The translations under genes were made by a program, and so were the position numbers. The notes under the pieces were generated by a model that worked only from the letters and a program-made list of their open reading frames with translations, did not search any database and was not told where the DNA came from. This document shows positions 43,975 through 46,969 of a stretch of 64,000 nt of DNA, one piece after another (within the stretch, counting starts at the first letter, position 1; the number at the start of each line of letters is the position of its first letter). The stretch comes from Polynucleobacter kasalickyi (lineage in GTDB: Bacteria > Pseudomonadota > Gammaproteobacteria > Burkholderiales > Burkholderiaceae): positions 1-64,000 of the forward strand of contig NZ_FWXJ01000002.1 of NCBI RefSeq assembly GCF_900176405.1. The letters are read 5' to 3'.

Positions 43975-44004
43975 GTCTTAATCTTCAACTATTAAAGATT
44001 GAAG

Positions 44005-46911
44005 ATGCCAAGTACAGATCCGCTCCCATCTCTAACCCCTACGGGTGAGGTGGATCGGGCTGTACAAGGTCTCAAAGTTCCCCCCCATTCCGTAGAAGCA
44101 GAACAATCTGTTTTAGGTGCATTGTTACTCGATAACAGTACTTGGGATTTTATTGCGCCTATTTTGCGCGAAGTCGATTTCTACCGAACTGAACATGCGG
44201 TTATTTACCGTACGATCGGTAAACTGGTCAATGAAAATAAGCCAGCCGATGTACTAACCGTCCATGAAGAGTTAAAGTCTACTGGTTTAGCCGAAAATTT
44301 TGGTATTACCTATTTAAATCAGCTCAGTAACAATACTCCAAGTACTGCGAATGTTCGCGGCTATGCACAGATCATTAATGATCGTAGTATTTTGCGCCGA
44401 CTGATCCAAACTGCCGATAGTATCGCTAATTCAGCATTTGATCCTGAAGGGAAAGCGGTTCGAACTTTATTAGATGAAGCCGAGTCACGTATTCTTGCCA
44501 TTAGTGAAATAGGTGGTAGTTCCGCTGAGTATTTCGAAATGGAAGAATTGATGACTGAGGCGGTGTTAAGGATTCAAGAGTTGCAAGCCAGAGGTGGATC
44601 GAATGACATTACTGGCGTTGCAACTGGTTTTATTGATCTCGATAAACAAACGAGTGGCCTGCAAAAAGGTGACTTAATTATCGTGGCAGGCCGCCCAAGT
44701 ATGGGTAAAGCCCAACCGCTAGATGCTCAGATTAAATTGTTATCTGGTTGGAAGCGTATGCAAGATCTGATGGTTGGCGATGCACTTGCCTCCATTGATG
44801 GCCAACCCTCCTTGGTGACGGGTATCTTTCCGCAAGGCTTGAAAGAGATTTATCAAGTGGTTTTTTCAGATGGTCGAACTACCCAATGTTGTGCTGAGCA
44901 CTTATGGCGAGTAGCCCATCCTGAGTGGTCGGTTGCAAGAGTACTATCGACTGGTGAAGTTTCGACTTATTTAGCTGACCCAAGGTATCAAGGTCAACTA
45001 TCTATCGATGCGATTACAGGTGATTTCGGTAACCCACAAATCTTACCGATGGAGCCTTGGTTAATGGGTGCTTTGCTCGGTAGCGTGGAGCAAGTCGTTG
45101 CCGATGAACTGGTTTTTAAACGTCTACAAGAGCCATTTGTTCAGCAGTTGCAACAAGCCATCGTTGGTGCCTTCCCTGAGTGGAGTGCGACCAAGCAGAA
45201 CGCTTTCTCTCAAAATGCTGATGGCCAGTGGCAATGGCAAGGTGTTTCGCCAGTTCTATTGCAAGTCAATGCGCCGCATTGCAAAGCTTCCTGCCCAGTA
45301 GTAGAAAAACTAACTCGAATGGGTTCCTTGCAGAGTGTCGAAAGCAATACTCACCGACCAAGTATTCCTGCGTTATATTTAGAAGCGCCCAAGTCAGAAC
45401 GTCAAGCACTTTTGACGGGTTTAATACAGGGACTATCCCAAGCAAGCTCCCCAACAACCTCATCAGATCGGATTACCCTGCAAGTTGCTAGCACTGAGTT
45501 GGCTCAGCAGGTCACGCAGCTCGTTAGGTCTTTAGGGGGTACTTGTCAAACTCTTGAGCAGCATCCTGCACAGAGTTCGCCTATTTGGCAATTACAGCTG
45601 GAATTACCAAGGGAAGATTTTGTGCCCTGCGTTACTTTTGCTAGTATTCGTCTGGTGCGACGTGCGCAAGCACAGTGTATTGCAGTTAGCCATCCGACCA
45701 GAACTTATCTGACCGATGATTATGTGGTGACCCACAACACGTCCTTTGCGATGAACATTGCTGAGCACGTAGCGATTAAAGAAGGCCTCCCCGTCCTCGT
45801 GTTCTCCATGGAGATGGGCGCTTCCCAATTAGCGACCAGAATGTTAGGCTCGGTCGGGAGGGTGAATCAAGGTCGACTCAAAACGGGTAATCTGAACGAT
45901 GAAGAATGGAGTCGTTTTACCAATGCAATTGGTTTGCTAAATAAAGCGCCCATGTTAATTGATGAAACGGGTTCCTTAAGTTCTTTAGAGTTACGGGCGA
46001 GAGCCAGAAGAATGGCACGTAAGTACGGCAAAGTTGGTTTAATTGTGATTGATTACCTCCAATTAATGGCGGGTAAAGGGACCAGTTCGGGCGATAACCG
46101 GACGACTGAGATCTCAGAAATATCTAGGTCGCTCAAATCACTTGCGAAAGAAATGGGCTGTCCAGTCATTGCCTTATCGCAGTTAAATCGTAGCTTAGAA
46201 AACCGCGAAAATAAACGACCCATCATGTCGGATTTACGTGAATGCGTTATTGGTAGTACGCTAGTTCTGTTGGCCGATGGCACGCAACGGCCGATTCAAG
46301 AATTAGTCGGTACCACCCCTTTAGTCGTTGCGATGAACGCACAACAAGAGCTTGTCCATGCGGTGAGTGATTGTATCTGGTCAGTGGGCGTTAAACCTGT
46401 CATGCGTATTCAAACTCAGCATGGTTTAGACCTCACTGCCACTGAAAATCATCGTATCTATACCCAAAAAGGTTGGTTAAGACTTGGAGAGTTACAGGTT
46501 GGTGATACCGTGGCAATCGCCATGGATCAAGTTGCTGGGGCCGCATCATCAATCACTTGGGATCTTGTCACGACCAAAGAAGTAGCAGGTGAAGCAGAGG
46601 TATATGATTTAACTGTACCTAGCCATGCATCTTGGTTATCTGGCGGCATTGTGAGTCATAATTCCGGGGCGATTGAGCAAGATGCCGATGTGATTATTTT
46701 CATTTATCGTGATAGTGTTTATCACCCAGAAACCGAGCGACCAGGGGTTGCAGAAGTCATTATTGGTAAACAACGAAATGGTCCAATTGGTACGGTGGAA
46801 CTTTCTTGGCAAGGCGAGTTCACTAAATTTGATAATTTAGCGCATGGTTATCAAGCCAATCCATTTGGCGGTAGCTCTGGTGGATCCAGTTCTAACAACG
46901 TACCCTTCTAA
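44005..46911 (+). CDS. dnaB: Replicative DNA helicase DnaB, interrupted by two inteins
   Basis: 968 residues from the ATG at 44005 (a TTG at 43999 is also in frame). Removal of the inteins (residues 236-578 and 747-886) leaves 485 residues, normal for DnaB. N-terminal domain: PPHSVEAEQSVLGALLLDN. The RecA-like ATPase domain has Walker A reconstituted as GRPSMGK-T across the first splice junction, Walker B (LIVIDYLQLM), SQLNRSLE, and the SDLRE-SGAIEQDAD motif across the second junction, then the KQRNGP motif. The tail is Gly/Ser/Asn-rich ending VPF. DnaB unwinds DNA at the fork as a hexamer. Since the first intein cuts the P-loop, unspliced protein cannot bind ATP normally, so splicing should control helicase supply. 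Confidence 0.96.
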   Translation: MPSTDPLPSLTPTGEVDRAVQGLKVPPHSVEAEQSVLGALLLDNSTWDFIAPILREVDFYRTEHAVIYRTIGKLVNENKPADVLTVHEELKSTGLAENFGITYLNQLSNNTPSTANVRGYAQIINDRSILRRLIQTADSIANSAFDPEGKAVRTLLDEAESRILAISEIGGSSAEYFEMEELMTEAVLRIQELQARGGSNDITGVATGFIDLDKQTSGLQKGDLIIVAGRPSMGKAQPLDAQIKLLSGWKRMQDLMVGDALASIDGQPSLVTGIFPQGLKEIYQVVFSDGRTTQCCAEHLWRVAHPEWSVARVLSTGEVSTYLADPRYQGQLSIDAITGDFGNPQILPMEPWLMGALLGSVEQVVADELVFKRLQEPFVQQLQQAIVGAFPEWSATKQNAFSQNADGQWQWQGVSPVLLQVNAPHCKASCPVVEKLTRMGSLQSVESNTHRPSIPALYLEAPKSERQALLTGLIQGLSQASSPTTSSDRITLQVASTELAQQVTQLVRSLGGTCQTLEQHPAQSSPIWQLQLELPREDFVPCVTFASIRLVRRAQAQCIAVSHPTRTYLTDDYVVTHNTSFAMNIAEHVAIKEGLPVLVFSMEMGASQLATRMLGSVGRVNQGRLKTGNLNDEEWSRFTNAIGLLNKAPMLIDETGSLSSLELRARARRMARKYGKVGLIVIDYLQLMAGKGTSSGDNRTTEISEISRSLKSLAKEMGCPVIALSQLNRSLENRENKRPIMSDLRECVIGSTLVLLADGTQRPIQELVGTTPLVVAMNAQQELVHAVSDCIWSVGVKPVMRIQTQHGLDLTATENHRIYTQKGWLRLGELQVGDTVAIAMDQVAGAASSITWDLVTTKEVAGEAEVYDLTVPSHASWLSGGIVSHNSGAIEQDADVIIFIYRDSVYHPETERPGVAEVIIGKQRNGPIGTVELSWQGEFTKFDNLAHGYQANPFGGSSGGSSSNNVPF
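44710..45738 (+). mobile_element. Class 3 intein in the DnaB P-loop, with degenerate LAGLIDADG domain
   Basis: 343 residues between Lys and Thr of GRPSMGK/T. It starts with Ala rather than Cys or Ser and ends THN before Thr+1. The three residues that define class 3 inteins are present in the right blocks: Trp66 (block B, two after the conserved His in CCAEHLW), Cys323 (block F position 4, AQCIAV) and Thr341 (block G, VVTHN). Class 3 inteins splice through the block F Cys, not residue 1. The central region resembles a LAGLIDADG endonuclease, but both motifs are eroded: LMGALLGSV (118-126) and LLTGLIQGLSQ (from 234) lack the metal-binding acids. So splicing is expected to work but homing is not. 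Confidence 0.88.
46243..46662 (+). mobile_element. Class 1 mini-intein in DnaB
   Basis: 140 residues between SDLRE and SGAIEQDAD. Block A begins with Cys1 (CVIGSTLVLLADGT), block B has LTATENHRIYT with the conserved Thr and His, block F is AEVYDLTVPSHASWLSGG (within the usual D-L-T-V pattern) and block G ends VSHN with Ser+1. All residues needed for standard splicing are there. It is too short for a homing endonuclease and none is seen. Confidence 0.92.
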
Positions 46912-46923
46912 ATTTCATCATGG

Positions 46924-46969
46924 TTCAAAGTGGGGCAGTTTGATGGTGTCTGTGCTTCAAAGTGGGGCA
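46924..46969. repeat. Direct repeat of TTCAAAGTGGGGCA
   Basis: The 14-mer occurs at 46924-46937 and 46956-46969, spaced 32 bp, just after the dnaB stop. Tandem short repeats of this sort occur at the ends of some insertion sequences (IS21-type termini were brought to mind), but no transposase is present. Could be a relic end or chance. Confidence 0.4.

Follow-up and report, generated by a model that had tools for sequence, protein, structure and literature searches.

Two inteins in the DnaB precursor of Polynucleobacter kasalickyi, with a predicted class 3 P-loop intein that lacks the acidic residues of both LAGLIDADG motifs

The dnaB gene of Polynucleobacter kasalickyi was analysed within a stretch of 64,000 nucleotides (assembly GCF_900176405.1, contig NZ_FWXJ01000002.1, positions 1 to 64,000; the whole stretch is called the window). 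It encodes a precursor split by two inteins. The one in the P-loop (intein b) is assigned to class 3, with Cys323 as the predicted nucleophile; its endonuclease region has lost the acids of both LAGLIDADG motifs, and the intein is likely immobile and inherited. The probability of this reading is put at roughly 0.8. What is new here, judged by sequence, is a clade of ten DnaB proteins with two inteins each, in which the P-loop intein has lost these acids (both motifs in nine members, one or more in the tenth). The features of the gene are as follows:

44005..46911, + strand: dnaB, intein-containing precursor, 968 aa from ATG, with Pfam DnaB N- and C-domains
44689..44709, + strand: first part of Walker A, GRPSMGK, on the N-extein side of site b
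44710..45738, + strand: intein b, class 3 by its residues, 343 aa, splitting Walker A between GK and T
44710..44712, + strand: Ala1, without N-terminal nucleophile; Ala in 37/37 site-b inteins
44887..44892, + strand: Cys60-Cys61, block B; Cys61 aligned with Asp62 of Mycobacterium smegmatis DnaBi1
44905..44907, + strand: Trp66, block B, the W of the triad
45022..45630, + strand: homing endonuclease region of LAGLIDADG type, with analyst-set limits (residues 105-307 of the intein); acids of both motifs lost, fold matches
45067..45087, + strand: first LAGLIDADG motif, GALLGSV versus GALLGDG in relatives
45415..45450, + strand: second LAGLIDADG motif, TGLIQGLSQASS versus QGLMDTDGW in relatives, with no D/E under any alignment
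45676..45678, + strand: Cys323, block F, proposed first nucleophile
45730..45738, + strand: Thr341, His342 and Asn343, block G
45739..45741, + strand: Thr+1, final Walker A residue, proposed C-extein nucleophile
46243..46662, + strand: intein a, class 1 mini-intein (Cys1, HN, Ser+1), after DLRE in the C-terminal domain, 140 aa

The gene is a single open frame of 968 codons with two in-frame inserts (b and a), and the database copy of the precursor also has 968 aa. The 343 codons of intein b follow GRPSMGK directly and are directly followed by TSFAMN, which places the insertion between the Lys and the Thr of the DnaB Walker A motif, the DnaB-b (P-loop) site. A preliminary description, made from the sequence of this DNA, had put the insertion at exactly this point (44710-45738, between GK and T) and had proposed a comparison with empty sites. 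That comparison agrees with it: in the two nearest empty-site genomes GGTAAG is directly followed by ACA, and GGGAAG by ACC, at the same place.

The assignment of intein b to class 3 is well supported by its residues, all located where the preliminary description had claimed them: (i) Ala at position 1, in place of Ser, Thr or Cys; (ii) Trp66 at position 12 of block B; (iii) Cys323 at F:4; (iv) Thr341 at G:5, followed by His342 and Asn343. Alignment of the splicing-half profile to PDB 6bs8 (M. smegmatis DnaBi1) pairs Trp66 with Trp67, Cys323 with Cys118, Thr341 with Thr137 and His64 with His65; a place for Trp66 or Thr341 outside blocks B and G, which the preliminary description had named as one outcome that would undo its claim, was not obtained. 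The A1, W, C, T, H and N residues are kept in all 37 site-b inteins (35 from the genus and 2 from the order), a set delimited by the GK and HN junctions alone, so that the triad is not present by construction. The Hedgehog/intein splicing fold, common to all intein classes, was found as well.

These residues suggest a sequence of reactions in which Cys323 would attack the bond before Ala1, the N-extein would be transferred to Thr+1, and Asn343 would cyclise with joining of the two Walker A parts. Intein a would exit by the ordinary Cys1/Ser+1 route of class 1. Both inteins would splice post-translationally, and the resulting 485-residue DnaB (the length of the extein after removal of both inserts) would gain ATP binding; as ATP binding needs the join in Walker A, only the spliced DnaB could work. 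No second DnaB-type helicase gene was found in the genome, rated 99.94% complete, in which the other match is RadA-like. Because dnaB is the only such gene found, the cell would depend on both splicing reactions, which would need to be efficient in vivo, and, with the insertion lying in the P-loop, splicing would come before helicase activity. Intein b likely still splices.

The second intein lies outside the span covered by the preliminary description and, together with the loss of the endonuclease acids of intein b, goes beyond it. Intein a possesses the residues of a class 1 mini-intein: Cys1, a block B TxxH with Thr67 and His70, His139-Asn140, and Ser+1, without an endonuclease. Intein models of both Pfam and NCBIfam detect it, and it matches the NpuDnaB intein (4o1r) at an E-value of 3.9e-30. 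Elsewhere (L043:2710-3972) site a holds an intein of full length, 421 residues, with splicing parts like those of the mini-intein in the window.

An active LAGLIDADG endonuclease has an acid at the end of each motif. In intein b both are missing (GALLGSV and GLIQGLSQASS), and the two-repeat LAGLIDADG fold is still found in the region. The other inteins of the genus keep the acids ending both motifs; four of their first motifs fall outside the search pattern but align without such a loss. Among 161 distinct aligned class 3 inteins the window alone has lost both acids, and one is missing in a few of the viral inteins; the set was extracted by requiring HLW and a Cys close to the intein's end, and A1, W, C and T are therefore there partly by construction, and 13 of the 160 fetched loci were dropped since the pattern did not delimit the intein. 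The endonuclease region of the window is about 21% identical to that of other DnaB inteins, compared with about 45% in pairs with equal splicing-domain identity, and the splicing part is at most 63% identical to other Polynucleobacter and Burkholderiales P-loop inteins. Of the columns conserved in 97% of 98 other inteins, the window keeps 46/50 in the splicing part and 19/37 in the endonuclease region; with strictly invariant columns only, the contrast is smaller (32/35 and 11/15). No further copy or donor of intein b was found in the same genome.

The loss is shared by close relatives. A search of 5.8 billion proteins gave 1472 matches, and among the 120 listed there are nine close two-intein relatives (P0002-P0010, 963-995 residues), which form one clade with the window protein (P0001), with support of 98 in the extein tree and 100/99 in the intein tree. 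The acids of both motifs are gone in P0001 to P0009; in P0010 those of the second motif are gone and the first motif is ambiguous in the alignments. In an aligned count of 117 DnaB proteins (three of the 120 had no readable start and were dropped; only Ala1 is by construction in this set) all non-clade members retain an acid at one position at least. An earlier text-pattern count, with 14 proteins lost at both motifs, was too strict and is superseded by the aligned one. Intein a is a mini-intein of 137-153 residues in all ten members. In an order-wide sample of 399 genomes nothing clade-like turned up apart from the window. The match that ranks next in E-value shows 43% identity over residues 3-283, and shorter matches reach 52% over residues 1-125. 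Two sister genomes (G045 and G077) are empty at both sites, and two others (G003 and G025) have only site a occupied. In the pairs P0006/P0008 and P0007/P0009 the extein proteins are identical, while the endonuclease regions of intein b are just 89% and 82% identical.

The preferred reading holds that the endonuclease would have stopped cutting and that the intein pair would have become fixed and inherited. The endonuclease fold would have been kept after the end of homing because the two splicing-domain halves fold around it. The shape of the domain appears to be kept by selection: the same 16 conserved endonuclease columns are retained in all ten members, and 15 others, acids included, are lost in all ten. 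The fold would be retained as a structural part, most likely because splicing leans on it; for a haloarchaeal PolB intein it is reported that mutations in the endonuclease affect splicing (PMC10643990). A redox or DNA-binding role is conceivable as well. A further-reaching and rather doubtful proposal is a domesticated intein in this essential replicative helicase, with a dead endonuclease that may now be a working part, either as an indispensable splicing scaffold or as a non-cutting DNA-binding sensor tying DnaB maturation to DNA, with both inteins fixed and co-inherited. The WhiA structures 8dy7 and 3hyi are among the fold matches of the region. WhiA, a DNA-binding protein, contains a non-cutting, reused LAGLIDADG domain; it has the LAGLIDADG fold according to the structure titles, its likeness to intein b is seen in fold only, and unlike intein b it is a free transcription factor outside any intein.

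The main alternative, to be held only tentatively, is plain decay, in which the endonuclease died at intein fixation and is now drifting, stays in frame only for the translation of dnaB, and resembles its relatives as a leftover of history. The homing cycle is expected to end in degeneration of the endonuclease once an intein has been fixed and all gene copies are occupied (PMC10643990), and the region shows deletions relative to relatives. The constant set of kept and lost columns argues against simple drift, as does conservation above neutral expectation in 45/45 clade pairs, a count that uses dS borrowed from genus genomes, a value of 3.0 wherever dS was saturated, and pairs that are not independent.

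This limit on dS is one of several points that weigh against the preferred reading. The dead domain shows real decay, being less conserved in 29/36 comparable clade pairs than in any intact pair of like extein identity, and 3/54 conserved columns of the splicing part are likewise lost in all ten members. The structure model built from the clade alone is of low overall quality (pLDDT 43.5), and AlphaFold may already have met the LAGLIDADG fold during training. As to the class, intein b lies below the cut-offs of every Pfam and NCBIfam intein model and therefore required tests of its own; the fold by itself does not decide the class, since the PI-SceI and Prp8 inteins score slightly above 6bs8; class 3 splicing is a prediction. 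The trees conflict regarding the origin of the intein of the clade. In the first tree the window intein stands outside the other Polynucleobacter inteins, in a thinner set it stands beside them (support 74), and in a third tree, with the clade added, it is outside again. A single Polynucleobacter clade is not rejected by the splicing columns (AU p 0.1) and is rejected at full length (p 0.002), where long branches meet.

The closest known arrangement is that of M. smegmatis DnaB (DnaBi1/DnaBi2; PMC6195587, PDB 6bs8), which also contains two inteins, a class 3 one in the P-loop and a class 1 one with Ser+1; DnaBi1 shares Ala1 and the W/C/T triad with intein b. In M. smegmatis it is the class 1 intein that bears the endonuclease and the P-loop one that is mini, whereas here the class 1 intein is mini and the class 3 intein carries a dead endonuclease region. 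Intein b and DnaBi1 are about 29% identical in a structural alignment (6bs8). Cys61 places a thiol at the position of Asp62 in DnaBi1. The site of the second intein is probably the same as in M. smegmatis DnaB. The match to NCBIfam PRK07773, which we take to be the model of mycobacterial intein-bearing DnaB, runs unbroken across the junction of extein and intein a.

By analogy with DnaBi1 (PMC6195587), splicing might act as a regulatory control of the helicase: oxidation or another signal would hold back splicing in the P-loop and pause replication, with the dead domain or Cys60-Cys61 as sensor. A disulfide on the catalytic Cys is reported to stop the P-loop DnaBi1 of M. smegmatis (PMC6195587), and Cys60-Cys61 is kept in 37/37 genus and order inteins and in 113/117 DnaB proteins. 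The M. smegmatis partner, Cys48, nevertheless sits elsewhere in the sequence, and a sensing role of the pair is putative. The pair is so widely kept, equally where the endonuclease motifs are intact, that it is no special adaptation of the clade; overall such regulation seems improbable. Far less likely still is an endonuclease that cuts with substituted residues and keeps the intein homing. The fold that is still recognisable in models and the conservation above neutral expectation would fit it, yet nine members of the clade lack the acids of both motifs and the tenth lacks those of the second, 15 conserved columns are missing throughout the clade, and the genome yielded no further copy. An inactive P-loop insert, with DnaB function supplied from elsewhere, has a precedent in an Arthrobacter class 3 pseudo-intein described without Cys at F:4 (PMC3196547) and is the least credible of all, given the intact triad, His64, His342 and Asn343, the 46/50 conserved splicing columns and the missing second DnaB-type gene.

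The preliminary description had also called a class 3 intein in a betaproteobacterium a notable find. Its class 3 interpretation stands on sequence grounds; the supposed rarity is ruled out by the occurrence in the genus and order and by a published Burkholderia vietnamiensis intein. Besides the genome of the window, 90 genus genomes were searched, of which 83 gave a match and 7 none; 82 were fetched and one with a weak match (G029) was left out. Site b is occupied in 36/83 Polynucleobacter genomes, the window's included (in one of these the locus is truncated at the end of its contig), and site a in 3/82 where readable. Two loci cut by contig ends (L044, L073) were excluded from the trees and from the count of 81 genomes. 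On the extein tree of these 81 there are 19 changes of state at site b, compared with a mean of 26.5 (range 20-33) in 200 shuffles; occupancy is less scattered than by chance, yet far from one gain. It also differs between species with 99.8% identical DnaB. The intein therefore comes and goes in most of the genus like a mobile element. The Polynucleobacter and Burkholderiales P-loop inteins share with that of the window the site, the triad, the AQPLDA-type start and the CC-EHLW block B; in contrast to the window's, the others of the genus keep the acids of both motifs.

Beyond the genus, two collections were scanned with block B, block G or the intein start. In named genomes 207 stretches encode relatives, a count that overlaps in genomes with that of the genus and is not additive to it; the best 80 of 207 include Limnobacter, Ramlibacter, Burkholderia and Roseateles, as well as single bins of other groups, e.g. 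Caulobacterales and Rokuibacteriota. The viral scan gave 199 stretches, and in the best 80 of 199 the intein often follows a Walker A-like GK with flanks that are not DnaB-like. In B. vietnamiensis G4, splicing of an IcmO class 3 mini-intein was demonstrated in 2016 (PMC5222942); it resembles intein b as a betaproteobacterial class 3 intein and differs in its host protein and in the lack of an endonuclease. A published survey of public proteins puts the number of class 3 inteins at 1701, with LAGLIDADG motifs in 82.5% of them (PMC7891396); the window intein therefore joins a known kind. In the literature searched, no paper combines Polynucleobacter and intein, and intein, DnaB and Betaproteobacteria occur together only in a jumbo-phage survey.

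Class 3 DnaB inteins thus extend beyond mycobacteria and their phages. A clade with the cutting residues gone and the domain seemingly held offers a direct test case for the dependence of inteins on the endonuclease fold, and the genus provides a contrast set in one gene, with empty sites, intact-motif inteins and dead ones.

Several minor observations were made. In viral contigs (L181-L252), class 3 inteins starting with AQPLDA stand after a GK that resembles Walker A. They do so in many frames of differing appearance, some of them very long, as if one intein family targeted the P-loop itself. Other DnaB frames in named genomes (L134, L162, L171) apparently combine a class 3 P-loop intein with a site-a intein, and the dnaB frame of Brachymonas chironomi (L147) has 1539 codons, far longer than one intein accounts for. 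Immediately 3' of dnaB, TTCAAAGTGGGGCA occurs in two direct copies 32 bases apart (46924-46969), which is not rare, as two matches with at most 2 mismatches were seen in 18/100 shuffled sequences; no other site in the genome matches a lengthened version of the pattern. Upstream of the dnaB ATG (44005) there is an in-frame alternative start, TTG at 43999. The gene is preceded by an rplI-like frame, and the genome size is 2.91 Mb.
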